Assembly (NCBI RefSeq): GCF_000711695.1
Contig: NW_013547021.1
Location: 186,001-250,000 of the forward strand
From: Tilletiaria anomala UBC 951
Taxonomy: Eukaryota > Basidiomycota > Exobasidiomycetes > Georgefischeriales > Tilletiariaceae
Direction: 5' to 3'
Length of the DNA: 64,000 nucleotides
Shown here piece after piece: positions 2,037-61,620 of the stretch. Every line of letters starts with the position of its first letter. Position 1 is the stretch's first letter. Made by a program: the position numbers and the translations under genes. The notes below the pieces were generated by a model. That model was given only the letters and a program-made list of their open reading frames with translations. It did no database searches and was not told where the DNA came from.

Positions 2037-3083
2037 ATGTTTGCTCCTAGATCGCTGCTGTCGGCCTCTAGAGCCTGTAAGTATCTGCGACTGTTTCGCC
2101 GGAGAGTGGCGACTTATCACATGTGCGCCGAGGTACTGACTCTGATCCGCCGTCCGCTTTCTGCTCGCCATCTCATCTCCTGATTCGCCGCCGGTCTTCA
2201 GCTGGCCTGAGCCTGCGCTTGCTGCATACCACTGCATCGGCTGCGCGCGTAATCAAACCTGGCCAGCTGCCCGCGTTGAGCAAGAGCACCGCACTCGTAC
2301 CAACCCGCGGGGACTCCTCCAGCTCTCCCGAAGCATCGACGTCCTCATCGTCATCGAGGGCCTTCACGTCCTCCGCCGTTGCCAGGCAGACGCCAGTCGA
2401 GTACGCTGCGCTCGCCAAGAGGGGCACAGAGCAAGCCAGTCTCGAGCAGCCAAAGAATGGCGTTGAATATGTTCTATCCACACTGGATAAGGTCGTCAAC
2501 TGGGCCCGTCAAGGCTCCATGTGGCCCATGACCTTCGGCCTGGCATGCTGCGCCGTCGAGATGATGCACTGCTCCACCCCGCGCTACGACCAAGATCGAT
2601 TCGGTATCATTTTCCGTGCCTCCCCCAGGCAGTCTGATGTTATGATCGTCGCCGGGACCTTGACCAACAAGATGGCGCCGGCTTTGAGAAAGGTTCGTGC
2701 TCATGCACATGTCGTCTCCTTCTTGGTTCCGAATTCCGCACTGACCCGTATCTGCGCCTTTGAACTGCAGGTGTATGACCAGATGCCAGAGCCCCGATGG
2801 GTCGTGAGCATGGGCAGTTGTGCAAACGGCGGTGGCTACTACCAGTAAGTGGATTAGACTTCGCTTGAACGCGACTCTTGCGTGTAATGAACCACTCGCC
2901 GCCCTTTCTTGCCTGCGAAACAGCTATTCCTACTCGGTCGTGCGTGGATGTGACCGCATCGTTCCCGTCGATCTGTACGTACCCGGATGCCCGCCAACAG
3001 CCGAGGCTCTGCTCTACGGTCTTATGCAGTTGCAGCGGAAGATGAAAAGGAAGCGCACCATGACACTGTGGTACAGGAGGTGA
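2037..3083 (+). CDS. NDUFS7: NADH:ubiquinone oxidoreductase 20 kDa Fe-S subunit (PSST/NDUFS7)
   Basis: Nuclear-encoded subunit of mitochondrial complex I. It carries cluster N2, the last iron-sulfur cluster before ubiquinone. Proposed exons are 2037-2076, 2202-2692, 2771-2844 and 2924-3083, giving about 254 residues. The start [13 protein letters not shown] opens a Ser/Arg-rich mitochondrial presequence, and the first intron (125 nt) splits it. The conserved core follows: [19 protein letters not shown] with the tandem cysteines, then [20 protein letters not shown], then MGSCANGGG and [14 protein letters not shown]. Together these supply the four N2 cysteine ligands. Introns 2 and 3 are needed to join [11 protein letters not shown] and [14 protein letters not shown], and both give correct phase with GT-AG ends. 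The gene converges on the transporter downstream. The family assignment is secure; only the length of the transit peptide is uncertain. Confidence 0.95.
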
Positions 3084-3396
3084 TGGAGACACATATGGAG
3101 ACGCACCGCATCTCACCGTGACAGATCAAGCTTTTGTACATACACACTCTGACACGTGTTGGCAGGCGCTGCACCCAGATTCCTTAACAATTGCAAATCT
3201 GTTGCGTGTGATGCTTTTCATGAGTCAGGTAAGGATTAGGCTACATTGTCGAGGCAGCATCTAGCGAAAAGTCTATGCGATCGTCCATATAATCCCCGGA
3301 AGAACTGGGCGCGCCATGCCACGCCCCTTTGTACTGCCTCGGGACTCTGCGCGCGAGCGCACAGGCGGGCTGCCAAGCTCTTTCCGCGTGAGTCTC
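3084..3396. other. Short convergent intergenic region
   Basis: This 313-base gap lies between the stops of two converging genes and should hold both 3' untranslated regions and polyadenylation sites. No separate coding or RNA gene is visible. Confidence 0.6.
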
Positions 3397-49663: not shown

Positions 49664-52600
49664 ATGGCGGCGATGGACGGCGGACTCGCGCCCTCTGCGT
49701 CGCTAGCCTCTTTGAATGGGTTCTCAGGTCATGGCGACGCGTCTGGGTCGAGTGCCGATTTCGAGCTTGGCCTTCTGCGAGCATACCTAACCGCATTACT
49801 ACCGCCACTACTCAATGCCGACATTGTCGCGCTGAACAAGGGCATCTTCAGCGAGAAAGCGGGTTGGACGCAAGCCGCAGCGCAGTTTGCGCGAGATCCC
49901 TCGATACCCGTGGTCTACATCAATCAAATCAGGCAGAGCATTGTAGAACAGGACGAAAGGGAAGATGGTGAGCTGTGCCATGGGCCACGCGCCAATCGCT
50001 ACTTGGGTTGAGCTAAAATTAGAGCTCTTGCGACTCGGCGATCCCAGATCCGTACACATACAACATCACGTCAACTGTGTCCTACTCGCCTCAGCACGTT
50101 GCGAGCATCGCGCTCATCAAGCGCGTACCCACGCTCGAGGCGGACGTACCACTATCACAACAGCTGCATCTACTGTCGTTGTTCGGACCAGCTAGCTCTC
50201 TGGGCCTTCCGGGGACAGGGCAAGGGACGAAAGGCTCTGGAGCAGGCGCGGGGACCAATGGCCGGGCCGACACCTCCGCGCAAGGCGCGATGATCCTTCG
50301 AGAGACACCTTATGAGGCCCTACACAGTGTTGTGCATCATGTCATGGCCCCGTGGTTCGATGCATACGTCAGCAGCAAGAGCATCCCAACCGCTACAGGC
50401 GGAGACGGCTTGGCAGTCGCAGCAAAGGGGGGCAAGGAGAATGACGCGCGGCTAGGGATTCCGATGACCAAGAAAAAGTTCGCAGAACTCGAGCTGTCGC
50501 TTCTGCACCTTCAGCAGAATGTCGAGATTCCAGAAATCCAGCTTGGTGTTCACCCTGTTGTTAGGCAGACCGTGGAGAGATGCCAAGCAGAGGAGCGGAG
50601 GATCACTGTCGATGCGGTCGAACCACAGTCAATCCTTCAGGACAGCTTGTTCCTGAATCGGTTGCAGGCGGACGTCAATGCATGGGTCAAGGAGATTCAA
50701 ACAGTAACGAAGCTGGATCGCGACCCTGCCTCCGGCACGGCTTCACAAGAGATCAACTTCTGGCTGTCGATGGAAAAGGCGCAAGAGCAGATCGAAGGCC
50801 AGCTTCGGTCAGAGCCTGTCGTGCTGACCCTCGATATCTTGCGATATGCTAAGCGATTTCATGCGACCACATCATTCCTTGCCGACACGGGTCTCAAAGA
50901 CTGCTCAGAACGGACGCACGGCTTCAACTTGCTCATGCGCGATTTCCCCATCAATGATCTGCTCTCCGCTACAGACCTGGATCGATGTGCGGACTCGCTC
51001 TTATCTGTTTTCGCGCACCTGAACAAGAAACTGCGCATCAGCCCTTATCCTGTCAAGAAAGCACTCGCGCTTGTGGACGCCATCAGCAGGGATCTAAACG
51101 ACACCATGGTCAAGGTCTTGGGTCCCATGCGGATCATGTATCAAGAGTATGACCGCTTCTATGCGACTCTCGAAGCAACTTCGCGGGTGTTTGCAGCTTG
51201 GGATGATGGCGCAAAAGAGTTCGTCTCGACGGGTCGTGATGTCATCAAGAAGCGCGCAGAGAAGTTCTTACCGATCAAGGTAAACCCTGTGCACCTGAAG
51301 CTTAGAGAACGACTGAGCTATCTCGCCACCTTCCGAAAAACGCACGAGCAGCTACGCGCCATGGTATCTTCTGGCAAGGCCATGACGCTTGCATCGACCG
51401 CTATCAGCGCAGAAAAGCAGCAGCAAACGCTGGCAGGCATTGAGATGACGGAAGAGATCCGCGCGGCGTACGACTCGGTCAAAGTCATCGATGTTCTTGA
51501 CGTCAGTCAGGAAGGTACGGAGATCTGGGGCACGGCGGAGCTGGCATATAATGAGAGGGTCGCACGGGTTGAGAACAGCTTGATTGCACGCTTGCGAGAT
51601 CTGCTTGGGCAGGCGAAGACGGCACGGGACATGCTGCGCGTGCTCTCACAATTCAACACACTTTTCGTGCGCCCCAAAGTGCGCGGTGCTGTCCAAGAAT
51701 ACCAGCAGCAGCTCCTGCACAGCGTCAAGGCCGATATCCAAGGTCTGCATGACAAATTCAAGGCGCAATACCAGCATTCCGAGGCCAATCACATGAGCCA
51801 GCTGCGGGATCTACCTAGCATCGCAGGTGCGATCATCTGGACGCGCCAAATCGAACGCCAGCTCAACATATACATGCGCAGAGTCGAAGATGTGCTGGGA
51901 AGAGGGTGGGAGCAGTACGCCGAGGGCCAGAAGCTCAAGAACGAGAGTGATGGGTTCAGGCGGAAGCTCGACCCCACGCCGTTGCTGCAGTCTTGGCTCA
52001 AAGAGATTCAACGACGAGACCTGAACGTCACAGGACGCATGTTTGCTGTGCTATATACTCGGGCGACCGGCAAGTACCAGCTGGCGGTCAATTTTGATTC
52101 GCAAGTCATCACTCTCTTCAAGGAGGTCCGCAATTTGCTGTGGATCAACTTGCCAACACCTACCATTCCTTATGCCATTAACAACGTTGCTCGAGAGGCG
52201 AGGCGAATCTATCCGCACGCAGTCTCGCTCATGGAGACGGTCAGGACTTACAATCAGACGAATAGCCTCGTTTCTCCTCAGCCAAAGATTGTGCCGCTAC
52301 TCGCGGCTCTCCGGACCGAGGTCAACAGCTTGATCTCTAAAGGGATGTCCATCCGCTGGGAGACGCTAAAGACATTTGATCTCAACCGCACTGCCAATTA
52401 TCTGCCTGGCTCCGGCGCAACCGACAAAATGGATCACAAGACTGTCGCTTTCGTTCGCCAGCTTGCTAGCTCTGTCAGCCTCTACCAGGACAAGGCGAAC
52501 GATCTCATTGCAATGCAGAACGAGATGCAGGGACTCGTAGATGAGCTAGCTGCCTGCCCTTTCTCGTTCGACGAATTCTCGCAACGGCTGTCCAAGATGC

Positions 52601-55600
52601 AGCAGACAGTGGACCGACTCAACCTCGAAGGGTACCCAAACTTGGAGGAATGGGTCGCCGACTTAGATGCCGCTGTCGAGAATGCACTCATTGAGAGGCT
52701 GCGGACGATCATCGCGCTTTGGTGTAGCGAATTCGCCAAAGAACGCCGTAGTGGAGACAGCGGGCTTCTCAGAGATGTGACCAATACGGTCGGTAGACGA
52801 GGGAAAGAGCGGGTCATGGTGACAAAGGTACTTTCGACGTCTGCAGAAATGGCTAGTATGAGTCCTCACTGATCTGATTCGCCTGAACGCTGTCCAGGGA
52901 TCTGCCGCATCTCGCGATCAAGTCGATCTGGCAACCGTGACGCATGAAGTCCGTCTGCAAAACCATGTCATCTACCTGGAGCCGCCGTTGGAGCAAGCCC
53001 GATCAGATTGGTTCAGGCAGCTACATGCGGTTCTGTCCAAAGTATGCGCCCTTCAGCGTGTGCAAAGCGCGCGTTATGAGCTTGGTTTCCAGCTTTCGGA
53101 AGGGCGACACAAGGACGTCACCTTCACGTCGCTTCTGACCAAGCTTCCTCAGGGTACCCTCGAACGCCCTGTGGCACTCATCGAGTCAAAGATCGCCGAG
53201 CTCACACAATACGTCGGCAAATGGCTCCAGTTTCAGTCGCTCTGGGATTTGGAAGCAGAGCGTGTTTTCGACAGCCTCGGTGAATCTCTACCCAAATGGC
53301 AGCAGCTCCTGGCCGAGATTCGCAAAACGCGCGCTACTTTTGACAATTCTGAATCCCAGCGCTCTTTCGGCATTGCTGTGATCGACTATGAACAAGTTCA
53401 GAGCCGTGTCAACGCCAAGTACGATGCATGGCAGAAAGACATTCTCAACAAATTCGGCTCTAAACTCCGAAGTGCCATGAGCGAAATGTACGCGATCGTC
53501 TCTAAAGCGCGCACAGACTTGGAACAACATAGCATTGAAAGCAGCTCGACCGCAGCGACTGTGACCTTCATCACCTTTGTGCAAGACCTTAAGCGCAGTG
53601 TCAAGAAGTGGGCACCCCAGATGGAGATCTTTAGCACAGGTCAAAAGACGCTTGAGCGGCAACGGTACATGTTCCCTGCGGATTGGCTATATGTCGACCA
53701 GGTAGAGGGGGAATGGAGCGCATTCAACGAGATTCTGAAGCGCAAGAATGCCAGCATTCAGGAGCAGCTGGCCGGCCTTCAGCTGAAGATCACTGCGGAG
53801 GACAAAATCCTTGAAGAGAAGATAACCACGCTGGTTGCCGAGTGGGAACGACAAAAGCCGATCCAGGGCAACCTGAAAGCTGATGCCGCCATGTCGACCA
53901 TCTCATCTTTTGAGACACGGCTACAAAGGCTCAGTGACGAACGTGACTTGATCGCGCGAGCTAAGGAAGCATTAGACCTGGAGCACAAGGCCGATGACCG
54001 CCTGGAGCCCATCTCCGAGGAGCTGCGCGACTTGAAAGGCGTCTGGACCGCTTTGTCTGGTACGTGGAGCCAGATCTCTGAGCTTCGCGACATCCAGTGG
54101 CACAACGTGCAACCCAGAAAGATTCGGCAACAGCTGGATGCCTTGCTCAATCAGACAAAAGAGCTGCCAAGTCGCATGCGACAGTATGCCGCATTTGAGC
54201 ATGTGCAGGATGTGCTGAGGACTCTGCTCAAGTGTAACATTCTCGTTTCTGATCTCAAGTCAGAGGCGATGCGCGAAAGGCACTGGAGGTCGCTCTACAA
54301 GCAGCTCAAGGTTCAGGCTCACTACACGCCTTCGACAATGACGCTCGGCACAGTCTGGGACCTCGATCTCAAGAAGCATGAAAACACAGTAAAGGCGGTG
54401 CTTGCGACTGCGCAAGGCGAACTTGCCTTGGAAGAATATCTCAAGCAAGTCCGTGAAACATGGACCAACTTCACGCTGGAGTTGGTCAACTATCAAAACA
54501 AATGTCGTCTAATTAAGGGCTGGGACAATCTGTTCCAATTGGCTGGTGACAATTTGAATGCTCTTCGAGCAATGTCCATGTCCCCGCACTACAAGGTCTT
54601 CGAAGAAGAGGCGAGCCTATGGGAAGAGCGTTTGTCCAAGATCTCGGTCCTGTTCGATACCTGGATCGATGTGCAGCGACAGTGGGTCTATCTCGAAGGC
54701 ATCTTCAGCGGCAGCGCAGAGATTCGTCACATTCTCCCCGTCGAAAGTTCACGATTCCAGAACATCAATACGGAGTTCCTCGCCGTCATGAAGAAAGTCT
54801 ACAAATCGCCTTTCATCTTGGATGTGCTCAATATCCCAGGCGTTCAGAAAAGCCTTGATCGACTCGCGGACCTGCTCGGGAAGATTCAGAAGGCTCTTGG
54901 TGAATACTTGGAGCGAGAGCGGTCAAATTTCCCTCGATTCTACTTCGTCGGAGATGAGGACCTGCTCGAGATCATCGGCAACAGCAAAGATGTTCTGCGC
55001 GTGATGAAGCACCTGAAGAAAATGTTCGCAGGCATTGCAACCATCGAGGTCGACGAGGACATCACCGAACTTCGCGCCATGGCCAGCAGAGAGGGCGAGA
55101 CGGTGCGCTTCAAGTCACCAATCCTTCTCAAAGATTACACGAAAGTGAATGATTGGTTAGCAAAGATCGAGAGCGAGATGCGGGTCTCTCTGTCCTACAA
55201 GCTCTCGCAGGCATACGAGGATCTGCAGACTTTCTACAGCGCGGAAGAAGGACTATCGCCAGAGAAGTTCCTGGACTGGATCGATGTCTACCCGGCGCAA
55301 TTGGTGGTGCTCACTGTGCAAATCATATGGACAACTCTGGTTGAACAGACCTTGAAGGCCGGCCGAGCTTTGGAAGAACCTCTCAACATCGTCCTTCGCG
55401 GGCTCGACATGCTAGCGGATACAGTTCTGACTGACGTGCCGATGCTGAAAAGGCGCAAGTGCGAGCATTTGATCACCGAGCTTGTGCATCAACGCGACGT
55501 CATCAGACTGCTCATGGCTCAGCAAGTCCAAGATGAGAAGGACTTTGCGTGGCTCTACCAGATGCGCTTCTACATTGACTCGTCAATAACAGATCCACTG

Positions 55601-58600
55601 GACCGCTTGACAGTGCAAATGGCGCAATCCGTATTCCCGTACGGCTACGAATATTTGGGCGTCCCTGACCGCCTTGTTCAGACGCCGTTGACCGACAGGT
55701 GCTACCTCACCCTCACGCAAGCACTCAACTTCCAGCTCGGCGGTGCGCCCTTTGGACCCGCTGGAACCGGAAAGACAGAGTCGGTCAAGGCGTTGGGCGT
55801 CCAGCTGGGCATGTTTGTCCTTGTCTTCTGCTGTGACGAGACTTTCGACTTCCAGGCCATGGGTCGTATCTTCGTCGGTCTCTGTCGCGTAGGCGCGTGG
55901 GGCTGTTTTGACGAGTTCAACCGTCTTGAAGAGCGAATCTTGTCCGCCGTGTCGCAGCAGGTGCAGACAATTCAGCATGGCCTATCCGCTTCTGTTTCGA
56001 ACCCAAACACTGAAGTGGAACTTGTCGGAAAGAGTGTCAAGATCAACCCAAGGACGGGCATCTTCATCACGACGAACCCGACGTATGCTGGAAGGTCGCA
56101 ATTGCCAGACAATCTGAAGAAGCTCTTCCGCAACATGGCGATGACACATCCAGATAGGGAGCTGATCGCGCAAGTCATGCTCTTCTCGCAAGGCTTCCGC
56201 ACGGCAGAAGTCCTTGCAAGCAAGATTGTTCCGTTCTTCAATCTATGCTCAGAGCAACTCAGCCCTCAACCTCATTACGACTTTGGCCTTCGTGCCCTCA
56301 AGTCTGTTCTGGTCAGCGCTGGGCAGCTCAAACGCGAGAAGCTTCTCGCAGGCGCAAGCGACGCCGACCCGGCGCAGCTTGGCCAGTCCGAACAGGAGCT
56401 CTTGATTCAGAGCGTGTCGGAGACCATCGTTCCGAAGCTCGTAGCGGATGACGTTCCTCTGCTTACAAGCTTGCTTCAAGACGTATTCCCAAGCGTGCAG
56501 TATAAACCAGCCGCGCTGGAAAAGCTCAAGGAGCATATTGCCGCGGTCTGCGCCGAGCAAAATCTTGTGAATGACGGTCTGTGGCTGGACAAAGTCATTC
56601 AGCTTTACCAGATCCAAAAGATCTCTCACGGTCTTATGCTCGTCGGCCCGTCGGGAACTGGCAAGTCTTTGGCATGGCGCGTGCTGCTCTCCGCGCTGGA
56701 AAAGCTGGAAGGCGTCGAGGGAGTGTCGTACGTGATCGACCCCAAGGCAGTCTCCAAAGAGGCTCTATATGGAACGCTGGATCAGACCACGCGCGAGTGG
56801 ACCGACGGTCTCTTCACGCATGTCCTGCGCAAGATTATCGACAACGTTCGTGGTGAGAGCGCGAAGCGGCATTGGATCATCTTCGATGGAGACGTCGATC
56901 CGGAGTGGGTCGAGAACTTGAACAGGTGAGTGTATGCTTCTGAGCCGAAGCAGCAACAGTGCGTCAGCAGGCTGACATATCGCGGATCAGTGTTCTGGAT
57001 GACAACAAGCTTTTGACGCTGCCAAATGGAGAGCGACTGAATTTGCCACCAAACGTCCGTATCATCTTTGAAGTAGAACACCTCAAGTACGCTACTCTTG
57101 CCACGGTCTCTCGCTGCGGCATGATTTGGTTCAGCGACGATATCGTCACGCCGAGCATGCTGTATCACAACTATCTCAGCAACATGCGGTCGATGCTGCT
57201 TGGCAACGACGAGGATGACTCGCTCGGGATGGCCAAACCGAAGCGCGCGATCTTATCGGACGACTCGGAAGTGCCACCCGAATTGCAAAACCAGCGCGTC
57301 ATTGCAGATGCAATTGCTCCGTTCTTTGAGGAACAAGGCCTGGTCACCAAGTCTCTCGATTTCGCCCAATCGGTCTGGCACATCATGGACTTCACTGTGG
57401 CACGAGCCCTGAACACTCTGTTCAGCCTTTTGAACAAGACGGTTCGGAATGTTCAAGAGTACAACCAGGACCACGCGGATTTCCCTCTGACCAAGGAGCA
57501 GATCGAAAGTTATGCCGTCAAGAGGCTTCTCGTCGCTATCGTCTGGGCCTTCGCAGGAGACTCAAAGCTTGATATCCGTGCCGAAATGGGCGATTTCATT
57601 TCCTCTCAGGCTGGTATCGACTTGCCGCCGGTCGGACCTGGCGGCTCACTCATTGACTTTGAGGTGCAGATTGCTGGGTCCGAATGGTACCCCTGGCAAA
57701 CTAAGGTGCCAACAATCGAAATCGAGATGAGTGCGGTCCTTGCTTCCGACATTGTGATTCCGACCATGGACACCGTCCGACACGAAGAGGTCTTGTACTC
57801 ATGGCTATCAGAACACAAGCCGCTTATGCTGTGCGGACCGCCGGGCTCGGGCAAGACGATGACGCTGTTCAGCGCCCTTCGAAAGCTGACAGATATGGAG
57901 GTCGTCGGTCTCAACTTCTCCAGCGCGACCACGCCAGAGCTGATCCTCAAGACATTCGAGCAGTATTGCGAGTACCGCAAAACCCCCAACGGCGTGATTC
58001 TTTCCCCGCAACAGATTGGACGCTGGATTGTCGTCTTCTGCGACGAGATCAATCTCCCTTCAACGGACAAGTATGGCACACAACGTGTTATCTCATTCCT
58101 TCGACAGCTGGTGGAATGCGGCGGATTTTGGAGAACATCGGACAAGGCCTGGGTGCGATTGGAGCGCATTCAATTTGTTGGCGCGTGTAACCCGCCTACG
58201 GATCCAGGTCGTGTGCCTCTAAGCCACCGATTCCTGCGGCATGCGCCTCTGGTCATGGTTGACTATCCGGGTGAAATTTCGCTCAACCAAATCTATGCCA
58301 CCTTCAACCGAGCCATGCTCAAGGTTACGCCTAATCTGCGCGGCTTTGCTGAACCGCTCACAGCAGCCATGGTCGACTTCTATCTGGCCTCGCAAAATGA
58401 GTTCACACCAGATCGGCAAGCACATTACGTCTATAGTCCGCGTGAGCTTACGCGCTGGACAAGGGGCATCTACGCTGCCATTCAGCCCCTTGACACTCTC
58501 AATGTGGAGGGTCTTGTGCGTGTCTGGGCACACGAAGGCCTGCGCCTGTTCCAGGACCGCCTGGTCACTGAAGAGGAGCGCCAGTGGACCAATCAAAAGG

Positions 58601-59472
58601 TCGATGAGATCGCCATGAAACACTTCCCGACAATCGATCAGCTGGAGGCACTCTCACAACCGATTCTGTTCAGTCCTTGGATGTCAAAGCATGTGGTCTC
58701 TGTCTCACGCGACTCTCTCCGCAACTATGTTAGTGCTCGCCTCAAGCTCTTTGCTGAGGAAGAGCTCGACACATCGCTTGTCCTCTTCGACGGCGTCTTA
58801 GATCTTGCATGCAGCATCGACAGGATCTTGCGACAGCGACAAGGCCACGTTCTCATGCTCGGCCTCTCGGGTAGCGGACGTACCACGCTTTCGCGCTTTG
58901 TTGCTTGGATCAACGGTCTGAGCATCTTCCAGATCGCCACAAGCAACAAGTATGGCATGGCTGAATTCGACGAAGACTTGCGCGAGCTGCTCAGGAGGGT
59001 GGGCTGCAATGGAGAGAAGGTGTCATTCATCATTGACGAGTCGCAGGTCAAGGATCCCGCCCAACTGGAGAGGATGAACACACTTCTTGCCAACAATGAG
59101 GTCCCTGGTTTGTTCGAAGGTGACAATGCAGCTGCGTTGCTCACGGCTTGTAAAGAAGGCGCGCAGAGGGATGGCCTCATGCTCGACTCTCCCGAGGAAC
59201 TCCTCAAATGGTTCTCCAGCGAGATTTCGAAGAACTTGCATGTGGCGAGTGTTGTCATTTAGACGTAATCGAGGAATGACCGTTGCTGACCTTGCGTTTT
59301 GCTGCAGACCTTTACGATGAATCCACCTTCGGCCGGCATGGGCTCGCGTGCCGCAGCCTCACCAGCTTTGGTGAGCTTCCTCGCATGTCAGCTTGTTCGC
59401 AGACTAACCGCTGACACCTGTACTCCATTTCCGTCGCAGTTCAATCGTTGTACGCTCCTGTACTGTTGGTGA
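49664..59472 (+). CDS. dyn1: Cytoplasmic dynein heavy chain, N-terminal half of a split motor (Dyn1-type)
   Basis: Minus-end microtubule motor. Exons 49664-49967, 50048-52827, 52898-56925, 56991-59244, 59308-59370 and 59440-59472 encode about 3153 residues. The tail and linker occupy roughly the first 1900. P-loops follow: AAA1 [10 protein letters not shown] (near 1982), AAA2 [11 protein letters not shown] (near 2277), AAA3 [11 protein letters not shown] (near 2652) and AAA4 [11 protein letters not shown] (near 2994), with Walker B blocks [29 protein letters not shown] and SFIIDESQ. In AAA4 the P-loop Lys is Arg. The frame ends shortly after ASPALFNRC, at the end of AAA4. No stalk, microtubule-binding domain, AAA5, AAA6 or C-terminal domain follows; a gene on the other strand starts its 3' end 99 bases later. 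This matches the split dynein of Ustilago maydis, where a second gene (dyn2) supplies the rest. Intron 4 appears to use a GC donor (GTG|GCGAGT). Confidence 0.96.
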
Positions 59473-59571: not shown

Positions 59572-61620
59572 TCATGGGGTGGGGGCATGCACGTGAGCAT
59601 CATGTTGCTGTGCTCGCTGCCGCAGCACTTCCGAGGGCAAGAGCAGCGTTTGCGTCCGCCGTGCGCCTCCGCCATCTTGAGCATCTGGGCCATCTGCAGC
59701 CAGACCGTGCATTTCGCATTCCTGTGCCAGGAAATGCTCCCGCATCATCTGGTTTTCCAATAAGGTTTGCTCGTACTCATAAGCCAAATCAAATTGCTTA
59801 GGCTGCACCTCGTATCCTTCCGACCCGCGCCGTACGCGGCTCCGCATGCCGTCCGCGAGACACTCGTCGCCGTGCGCTGAGAGCCCATCTCGCTCTGAGC
59901 TGGAATCAGAGTCACCAGTGGGTTCGCCAATGGGGAAGGCGCTTGTTGGATACGGCCGCGGTGCTCGGGAACCTTCCATCGATGGCCACAATGATTGCCT
60001 CTCATTCTCTTCGCCCAGGTCTGCATCTTCATCTTCGCCGTCCTCATCGGTGCTGGTGTCACTGCTCCGCCTTCCCTCGTCAGCATCGTAATCGTCTCTG
60101 TGGAGCCCAAAGTCCGGGTGCCATGGCGAGACGCTATAGTTGTAATGGTGGCTCTGGGATGGGCATTGTAACGCGCTGGATCGCGCCCCCTCGAGCTCAG
60201 GTTCGATCTGTTCAGCATCATGAGCCGTAGGCAGCTCGCCTCCGCCGACGTCGTGTACCCTTTGCCGCCGCTGATGCATTGATTCCGCGCGCTGTTTAGA
60301 CCCGGACGATGAAAGGCCGTGCCATCCGTTTTGCCCGCCAGTCACTGCTGCCTCGTATTCTCTTCGACCTGCCTTTTGACGCATATAGTCATGTTCAAGA
60401 GTCTTGAGTGGGTCCTTCGGCGGCCAGTCGTACTGCTTGTGCGGTTCGACCTGCGAACATGTCTCGTAGCTGAGCCCATCACCATCACACGCCTTGCGAC
60501 CAGGCATGAAGAACCAATGGACCGGTGTCGGACCAAGGACGACGGTGATATTCCGCCAGAATGGCGAGAGAGTGAATGGAAAATCGATCAAATCGCGTCC
60601 TCGCGCGAGGCGGCCGCGTCGTACCATCGTTTCGACCTTGTCCGTCTCGGCGCTTTCGACGGTGGTCATGTTGTTGCAGAGCAACCAGATGTGCCACATG
60701 GTAAAAACGCCGACAAGCAGCAAGGTGATGCCGCAAAATATATAATTCAGAATGCATAAGACCGTGACGGCCGTTGTTGGCGGTCTGAAGTACCCGCTAG
60801 TAGTCTGGCCCCAATAATCGAGGGCTATACAGGTGATCAGGACAAGGTGCGCCGAGCAGGTCACGCAAACGGAGTAAAGAAATCGCAGGAAATGCGGGTA
60901 ATTGTTGTGGCCAACGCAATTGGCGAGCCAGGGGCAGTGGTGGTCCATACGAAGGGTACAGCTCCGACAGGTCTTGCAATGATGGGCTCTCGGTGGTTTG
61001 TAGGCTTTGCAATGTCGACAGTAGCGAGGTTGGCTTGGGCGGATAGGTGGCCGTTGTTGCTGATGCTTGCGCACGAGCAGGGGTTTGTCGTCTTCTTCAA
61101 CTTGATCCTCGACCGCAAGCACTTGCTCTGACAGTGCCTGAGGAAGAGTTGGCGGACTCCAGCCCTTTGGCACCCGTCCAGGTGACGAAGTAACGCAAAG
61201 GAAGTAGTTAAAGTAGATGCAAGAGAGACCGATGTTGAAAGGGAGCAGAATCTTCCAGCACATGTCTCCCAGAGTGATCAGGATGCGATGCTTCGACTTC
61301 AAGTAGTAGTCAAGCAGTAGCAGCTGCACGGACAGGCCGAGGAAAGTGATTAGGGTGAGAGTTCCGCCGACCCTGGGGAGAGTCAGCCCAAGCAAGACTA
61401 TCACCGTCAGCGCAGTGGTGAAGAGCACAGCGCACGGCCGACGACAGGGGACTCACCAAATCTTCTCACTGAACTTCAGCGGTGCCCTCTGCTTCCTGAG
61501 TTCCTTGTCGTCAATACAACCCACTGGTGTACTTTGTTGCCCCTTCTGAGTTGCGGCCTGACTGTCGGACATGATGGCGTCGCAGTCCACGAGCACCGCA
61601 CCAGTCCCCGCCGATGACAT
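59572..61620 (-). CDS. PFA4: Palmitoyltransferase, DHHC type (Pfa4-like)
   Basis: Membrane enzyme that attaches palmitate to cysteines; yeast Pfa4 acts in the endoplasmic reticulum on chitin synthase Chs3. Exons 61620-61457 and 61372-59572 on the minus strand give about 654 residues. The first two hydrophobic segments (LTLITFLGLSVQLLLL and LLPFNIGLSCIYFNYFL) precede the Cys-rich domain starting YCRHCKAYKPPRAHHCKTC, with the catalytic MDHHCPWLANCVGHNN near residue 197. Two more membrane helices follow, then the TTVE-like motif (MTTVESAE). The C-terminal 350 residues are polar and acidic, far longer than in yeast. The junction KIW-VGGTL fits the family. The start is uncertain: ATGs at 61620 and 61572 are both plausible. 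The gene converges on dyn1 with a 99-base gap. Confidence 0.92.

Follow-up and report, generated by a model that had tools for sequence, protein, structure and literature searches.

A split dynein heavy chain in Tilletiaria anomala: two genes that part at the AAA4 subdomain boundary, and an altered AAA4 ATP site

In human DYNC1H1 and yeast Dyn1, the heavy chain of cytoplasmic dynein-1 is a single polypeptide with a tail, a linker, the modules AAA1 to AAA6, a stalk and a C-terminal domain. Some basidiomycetes encode it in two genes. In Ustilago maydis the break lies within AAA4, with about two thirds of the chain in Dyn1 and one third in Dyn2 (PMC4540427, PMC7373426); the two proteins are described as one complex, both essential, with loss of either gene lethal (cited in PMC4540427). 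According to Brunsch et al. 2015 (PMC4540427), this split point is conserved in Ustilaginomycota and differs from two others found in basidiomycetes. The agaricomycete Schizophyllum commune likewise makes its heavy chain from two genes, Dhc1 and Dhc2; there the tail is cut at residue 1180, ahead of the motor, and lysine is kept in the AAA4 Walker A motif, GVSGSGKT (PMC4540427). For Wallemia, the split is stated to lie between AAA1 and AAA2 (PMC4540427). Here we analyse a 64,000-nucleotide stretch of DNA from Tilletiaria anomala UBC 951, a member of Ustilaginomycotina (Exobasidiomycetes, Georgefischeriales) (contig NW_013547021.1, here C1, positions 186,001 to 250,000; the window, C1:186001-250000), which carries a dynein heavy chain gene, Dyn1, that stops before the stalk. 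In the original prediction, made from the letters of the window, this gene was read as one half of a split motor gene.

Our six-exon model of Dyn1 is identical, letter for letter and over its full length, to P0122, annotated as "putative cytoplasmic dynein heavy chain 1" of T. anomala UBC 951 (P numbers are our handles for the compared proteins). Together with a second gene, Dyn2, it holds all the parts of an unsplit dynein-1, from which the T. anomala pair differs in being two chains, in an arginine in the Walker A motif of AAA4, and in having about 21 residues fewer in the AAA4 small subdomain. In the published descriptions available, we saw no difference in architecture from the U. maydis pair. 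T. anomala Dyn1 continues to AAA4, with no agaricomycete-type break in the tail (at about residue 1180). Its AAA1 is intact, which sets it apart from the Wallemia proteins compared here (P0318, P0043 and P0044): these also come from two genes with a break inside the motor, but they part within AAA1, between Walker B (CFDEFNR) and sensor I (TSNPGYAGR), unlike the published placing, and their AAA4 Walker A keeps the lysine. Our reading, to which we give a probability of about 0.85, is that T. anomala Dyn1 and Dyn2 would make up one heavy chain encoded by two genes, with the ring jointed at AAA4 and with an AAA4 that is not a normal ATPase.

The genome, 18.4 Mb in 202 contigs, was searched with domain families of the heavy chain. 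AAA_6 (AAA1) and AAA_8 (AAA4) were each found in one place, both on C1, and the stalk family MT and Dynein_heavy (region D6) each in one place on another contig, C17, the latter at C17:148553-148876. The gene on C17, Dyn2, has a model equal to P0001 ("cytoplasmic dynein heavy chain 2", T. anomala UBC 951). Pfam recognises in it the stalk, AAA_9 (AAA5), Dynein_heavy, AAA_lid_11 and Dynein_C; its AAA4 small subdomain was recognised by alignment only. Dyn2 begins at the residues where Dyn1 stops and continues through the stalk, AAA5, AAA6 and the C-terminal domain, and the two together contain all six AAA modules, the stalk and the C-terminal domain. No second heavy chain gene was found in the genome by the AAA_6, AAA_8, MT and Dynein_heavy searches, in which the best candidates were scored. 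Domains of dynactin and of the light intermediate chain were also found in the genome. The expectation that a search for a separate gene, running from before the stalk to the C-terminal domain, would recover the missing third was borne out by this single place on C17, and the two-gene interpretation is supported.

In order to place the break, Dyn1 was compared with solved dyneins. As the original prediction had it, the frame runs through ASPALFNRC, immediately before the stop, and ends at a TGA at 59470-59472; it opens with a start codon at 49664. The AAA4 part of Dyn1 taken by itself matches solved dyneins at E = 5.6e-82, so that chance is not an issue, yet its match to Pfam AAA_8 covers no more than positions 2-187 of 259, and the AAA4 small subdomain is absent from Dyn1. 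The alignment with 9mfv_A, a chain of 4092 residues that we take from its residue count to be full yeast dynein in native numbering, ends at residue 2914, four residues before the end of Dyn1. In yeast, the AAA4 large subdomain spans 2735-2916 and the small one 2917-3355 (Gleave et al. 2014, PMC4047620). By this alignment, the predicted end of Dyn1 is the boundary of the AAA4 large and small subdomains, to within about two residues, and the break falls at about yeast 2914-2918. Aligned with human dynein, Dyn1 reaches residue 3092 and Dyn2 picks up again at 3142. Dyn2 starts with MPIPISKAPGDWHP, which matches the GDW next in line in unsplit chains and is followed by small-subdomain sequence, of which 21 residues are missing in comparison with unsplit chains. 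The description of the chain as ending after AAA4 was therefore inexact, since the end lies inside the module and the small subdomain opens Dyn2.

Most of the movement within the ring is proposed to take place between the large and small subdomains of one module, while the small subdomain is reported to form a relatively rigid pair with the large subdomain of the next module (Gleave et al., PMC4047620). Judged from the alignments, the break is at the AAA4 hinge, and the rigid pairs AAA3 small/AAA4 large and AAA4 small/AAA5 large would stay whole. The Arg finger (FNR) is still supplied by the last residues of Dyn1; as is general in AAA+ proteins, it serves the site of the neighbouring module, here AAA3. 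To place the subdomain boundary, the structure of P0119, a fused relative without a P-loop, was predicted; the model was not used (mean predicted local distance difference test score, pLDDT, 60; predicted template modelling score, pTM, 0.29; residues 113-161, including the break region, below 50). It gave a helix, a short loop and a helix at the break region, with no strand, and a finer placing was not confirmed by it.

The same break is found across the clade. In 22 of the 23 split rows, T. anomala included, Dyn1 runs on for 6-10 residues past FNR. Of the 23, thirteen are named, from Tilletiaria, Tilletia, Testicularia, Violaceomyces, Kalmanozyma, Jaminaea, Microstroma, Exobasidium and Ceraceosorus, with two each from Sporisorium and Pseudozyma. 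P0241 (Violaceomyces) has the same AAA4 P-loop as the other split rows and a different annotated end, which is probably a gene-model fault. In P0123, the last 55 residues are identical to those of T. anomala Dyn1. On the other side of the break, GDW stands within the first 25 residues in 33 of the 36 Dyn2 rows checked; it is at 41 in P0023 and 74 in P0007, and is absent from the later-starting P0039. Features of both genes are collected in Table 1.

Table 1. Features of Dyn1, its 3' neighbour and Dyn2. Positions refer to the window, or to C17 where so marked. Window positions of the AAA1 and AAA2 Walker A motifs were converted by hand from residue numbers, and the start of the AAA4 large subdomain was transferred by hand from yeast AAA4 large 2735-2916.
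Feature	Position	Strand	Details
Dyn1 gene, N-terminal two thirds of cytoplasmic dynein heavy chain	49664..59472	+	6 exons, 3153 aa
Dyn1 exon 1	49664..49967	+	begins at start codon 49664
Dyn1 exon 2	50048..52827	+	tail
Dyn1 exon 3	52898..56925	+	tail, linker, AAA1 and first part of AAA2
Dyn1 AAA1 Walker A	55754..55777	+	GPAGTGKT, intact; residues 1981-1988
Dyn1 AAA2 Walker A	56645..56668	+	GPSGTGKS, intact; residues 2278-2285
Dyn1 exon 4	56991..59244	+	rest of AAA2, AAA3 and most of AAA4 large subdomain
Dyn1 AAA3 Walker A	57835..57858	+	GPPGSGKT, intact; residues 2653-2660
AAA4 large subdomain, last module of Dyn1	58786..59472	+	contains two introns; AAA_8 2-187 of 259
Dyn1 AAA4 Walker A	58861..58887	+	codon 58879-58881 is Arg, Lys in unsplit dyneins
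Dyn1 intron 4	59245..59307	+	GC-AG type, donor GCGAGT; backed by identity with P0122
Dyn1 exon 5	59308..59370	+	AAA4 sensor I region, TFTMNPP to SPAL
Dyn1 intron 5	59371..59439	+	GT-AG, 69 bases
Dyn1 exon 6	59440..59472	+	Arg finger codon 59446-59448; stop TGA 59470-59472
Convergent neighbour gene, 618-aa open reading frame	59572..61428	-	DHHC motif; bounds Dyn1 on the 3' side
Dyn2 gene, remaining third of heavy chain	C17:145626-150430		four exons, 1534 aa

A Walker A lysine at AAA4 is a trait of cytoplasmic dynein-1 that T. anomala Dyn1 lacks. All 23 split Dyn1 rows have arginine at this position, and all 193 unsplit rows whose P-loop is readable have lysine. The Walker A motifs of the preceding modules are intact in the split rows (AAA1 and AAA3 in 23/23, AAA2 in 22/23), and other elements of the AAA4 site have been kept: the Walker B motif IDESQ in all 23, the sensor I asparagine in 22/22 (21 with MNP and one with FNP), the Arg finger in 22/22 and, in Dyn2, the sensor II-like arginine in all 36 covered rows. 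The AAA5 arginine of Dyn2 is present in 35 of 37 rows and is lysine in the other two. The threonine after the Walker A arginine is also lost in 4 of the 23 rows, P0159, P0251 and P0260 (GRAT) and P0250 (GRGT). These rows include Microstroma and Jaminaea, a further step of change at the AAA4 site.

Rows with fewer than 90 identical positions were left out of the classing, and 27 rows could be placed in neither class: 13 with a broken P-loop, two with lysine and an incomplete small subdomain (P0153, P0189), and 12 without a P-loop. By name, the 13 unsplit rows with a broken P-loop are twelve red yeasts and one member of the Tremellales. Eleven of them show a clean six-residue gap in the AAA4 P-loop (P0285, P0271, P0264, P0312, P0287, P0268, P0267, P0272, P0262, P0309 and P0315); P0317 reads GVSGGGK and then retained intron-like sequence, and P0302 has a broken alignment. 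We take the broken P-loops in these 13 public models to be gene-model errors; in the twelve apart from P0302, a mis-called splice site is the probable cause.

Change at near-invariant sites was then counted module by module, a site being scored as shifted when it was at least 98% constant in 178 unsplit chains and had changed in 90% or more of 22 split rows. In Dyn1, 17 of 148 sites of the AAA4 large subdomain were shifted; the counts were 1/132 in AAA1, 0/160 in AAA2, 0/193 in AAA3, 7/208 in the linker and 0/11 in the tail. A looser coverage rule gave 6/236 in the tail and 17/145 in the AAA4 large subdomain. For Dyn2 (37 rows vs 152), six of 38 sites were shifted in the AAA4 small subdomain, with 1/109 in the stalk, 0/133 in AAA5, 0/27 in the next segment, 1/87 in AAA6 and 2/43 in the C-terminal domain. 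Five unsplit control clades had 0/152, 0/149, 2/147, 0/147 and 0/151 shifted sites in the AAA4 large subdomain. Their maxima elsewhere in the ring were reached in Mortierellomycota (AAA1 3/140, AAA2 5/170, AAA3 4/199), and Tremellomycetes had 11 shifted sites among 261 in the tail. The seven changed sites in the linker (residues 1576-1640 of P0122) and the one in AAA1 (residue 2000) may be matching changes, the linker docking near AAA4/AAA5.

Mean identity followed the same pattern. With 12 Pucciniomycotina rows as reference and six unsplit sets for comparison (the Agaricomycete set holding 25 of 96 rows), the AAA4 large subdomain was the most conserved module in each unsplit set (0.85-0.94) and the least conserved in the split clade (0.63), and the identities of AAA2 and AAA3 were much alike in split and unsplit sets. 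AAA1 stood at 0.73 in the split clade vs 0.79-0.89 in the unsplit sets, a difference that comes at least partly from poor gene models (P0251, P0258). T. anomala alone gave 0.81 for AAA1, 0.72 for AAA2, 0.76 for AAA3 and 0.68 for the AAA4 large subdomain. The AAA4 small subdomain averaged 0.485 in the split clade; three unsplit sets gave 0.69-0.74 and Wallemia 0.586. The split AAA1 of Wallemia is not visibly degraded (identity 0.77-0.80 to Pucciniomycotina), and a split module therefore need not decay. As a separate observation, the AAA4 small subdomain of Wallemia P0043 (GDWAPASLATVASELT) is similar to that of the smuts and, at 0.586, less well conserved, though AAA4 is unsplit there.

Trees of 49 rows were built from 15 of the 23 split Dyn1 rows and 34 fused chains (P0125, P0126 and P0137 were dropped by the cutting rule), and Dyn2 trees from 15 Dyn2 rows and 34 fused chains. 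The stem of the split clade measured 0.278 in the AAA4 large and 0.617 in the AAA4 small subdomain, compared with 0.082 in AAA2+AAA3, 0.092 in the stalk, 0.042 in AAA5 and 0.228 in AAA6. As a share of total tree length it came to 8.1% and 9.5% for the two AAA4 subdomains, and to 1.0-2.4% for the others. Change is concentrated in the two facing half-modules of AAA4, on the branch where the split is first shared. We considered, and rejected, a faster evolution of dynein as a whole in this clade, because the conservation of AAA2, AAA3, the stalk and AAA5 matches that in unsplit clades.

Several observations weigh against our reading, or against its sharper forms. The stem in AAA6 is long as well (0.228), the split clade has a support of only 0.542 in the AAA2+AAA3 tree, and the split rows are not monophyletic in separate AAA1 and AAA2 trees, which were for that reason not used. 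With the shifted linker sites and, under the looser coverage rule, the tail sites, the change is not wholly confined to AAA4. The pattern for the conserved pre-sensor I (PS-I) surface motif of AAA4 matched only 13 of the 23 split rows. Loss of the threonine in the four rows named above, judged from their sequences, argues against tight ATP binding there; conversely, with Walker B and the sensors retained, AAA4 could still hydrolyse ATP. Since the split rows form one clade, the lysine-to-arginine change counts as a single event that by itself is not tied to the split, and the order of the two is undecidable from one branch. Assembly of the two chains in trans would follow from work on U. maydis that is known to us through citing papers. 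The compared proteins were without Malassezia and without a row named U. maydis. For this last reason, the likeness to U. maydis in architecture and break position that the original prediction stated is supported through the close relatives Sporisorium, Kalmanozyma and Pseudozyma and through the published AAA4 split.

Under our reading, Dyn1 supplies the tail, the linker, AAA1-AAA3 and the AAA4 large subdomain, Dyn2 supplies the AAA4 small subdomain, the stalk, AAA5, AAA6 and the C-terminal domain, and the two would come together in trans as one ring of six modules. They would be joined at the hinge between the two AAA4 subdomains, across which, in an unsplit module, the small one moves relative to the large one. 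Because the Walker A residue is arginine while Walker B, sensor I, the Arg finger and sensor II remain, AAA4 would be expected to bind nucleotide, hydrolyse it poorly and serve mainly as a structural joint, and bound nucleotide may help to tie the two chains. To judge by analogy, ATP probably still binds to the smut AAA4 but is turned over poorly. Yeast dynein unable to bind ATP at AAA4 (K/A) is reported as immotile, whereas the E/Q form, which binds and cannot hydrolyse, moves at 89 vs 110 nm/s (Liu et al. 2020, PMC7683685); for the Dictyostelium AAA4 counterpart, a loss of only 60% of gliding is noted in the same source. In RAD51, the Walker A lysine-to-arginine change is described as blocking hydrolysis and lysine-to-alanine as blocking binding (PMC6690234). 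According to Gleave et al. (PMC4047620), ATP at AAA2 keeps the AAA2-AAA3 interface together. It would not be unreasonable to go further and suppose that AAA4 of Ustilaginomycotina has changed from a regulatory ATPase to a permanent joint between the chains, with ATP held there without normal turnover and bridging the large subdomain of Dyn1 and the small subdomain of Dyn2; we put this forward tentatively, at somewhat less than even odds.

The strongest rival holds that the AAA4 pocket is dead, binds no nucleotide, and that the halves are joined by protein contacts only. The arginine in every split row, and the raised change in both halves of AAA4 that loss of function at the site would bring, would fit it. 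Walker B, the sensor I asparagine, the Arg finger and the sensor II arginine, however, need not have persisted at the frequencies given above in a pocket without function, and the yeast mutants and RAD51 just cited speak for a site in which binding outlasts hydrolysis. We regard a dead pocket as unlikely, but the threonine lost in four rows keeps it a live rival.

A second function of Dyn1 or Dyn2 without its partner is more doubtful still. Moonlighting has been proposed for the differently split Schizophyllum chains (Brunsch et al., PMC4540427). In the smuts, however, AAA2, AAA3, the stalk and AAA5 are conserved as in unsplit dyneins, as expected if a complete ring is selected, and the lethality of losing either gene in U. 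maydis (cited in PMC4540427) likewise speaks for a shared task.

Trans-splicing could in principle join the two pre-mRNAs into a message for a full-length heavy chain, given that the Dyn1 and Dyn2 proteins abut almost exactly at the break. It is very improbable: Dyn1 carries a stop of its own and Dyn2 a start of its own, in almost constant positions clade-wide and with variable end sequences, Dyn2 has its own start codon on a different contig from Dyn1, and the 21-residue deletion and the burst of change at the joint are as expected of separate chains. Separate mRNAs and polypeptides were reportedly seen in U. maydis by Straube and colleagues in 2001, which would also count against it. That the truncation is an artefact of annotation, or of an assembly break in this draft of 202 contigs that removed 3' exons, can be dismissed, since Dyn1 stops at C1:245472 of a 463,366-base contig and Dyn2 occupies 145.6-150.4 kb of C17, which is 227,569 bases long, both genes being distant from contig ends, an opposite-strand reading frame closes in 99 bases past the Dyn1 stop, as the original prediction had stated, and other genera show the same break.

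The neighbouring frame on the minus strand is a putative DHHC-family gene, judged from its motif. Within Dyn1, intron 5 is open in frame, and since it is 69 bases long its retention would insert 23 residues beside the Arg finger. For Ceraceosorus bombacis, P0258 (Dyn1) and P0011 (Dyn2) list the same longest contig, of 834,941 bases, so that there, unlike in T. anomala, the two genes may lie on one contig.

The split, its conservation in the subphylum and the presence of both T. anomala proteins in databases were already known, the split architecture having been published for Ustilaginomycotina (Brunsch et al., PMC4540427). We found no description of the AAA4 Walker A change or of the module-specific burst in the literature searched, of which parts were available; Straube et al. 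2001 may have one. We record here the break at the AAA4 large/small boundary together with the Walker A change, and claim no priority.

These findings make the role of AAA4 testable in a motor whose AAA4 has an arginine in the Walker A motif and is itself cut by the chain break. Either hydrolysis at AAA4 can be dispensed with and the ATP there is structural, or split motors use another gate. The pattern suggests the passage of a single-chain ring to two chains at a hinge, with change in the facing half-modules and little in their neighbours. If AAA4 has indeed become a joint that holds its ATP, smut dynein would run without the AAA4 gate needed by yeast and would be a natural experiment on ATP turnover at AAA4, in which the bridging ATP would resemble the structural AAA2 ATP of other dyneins.

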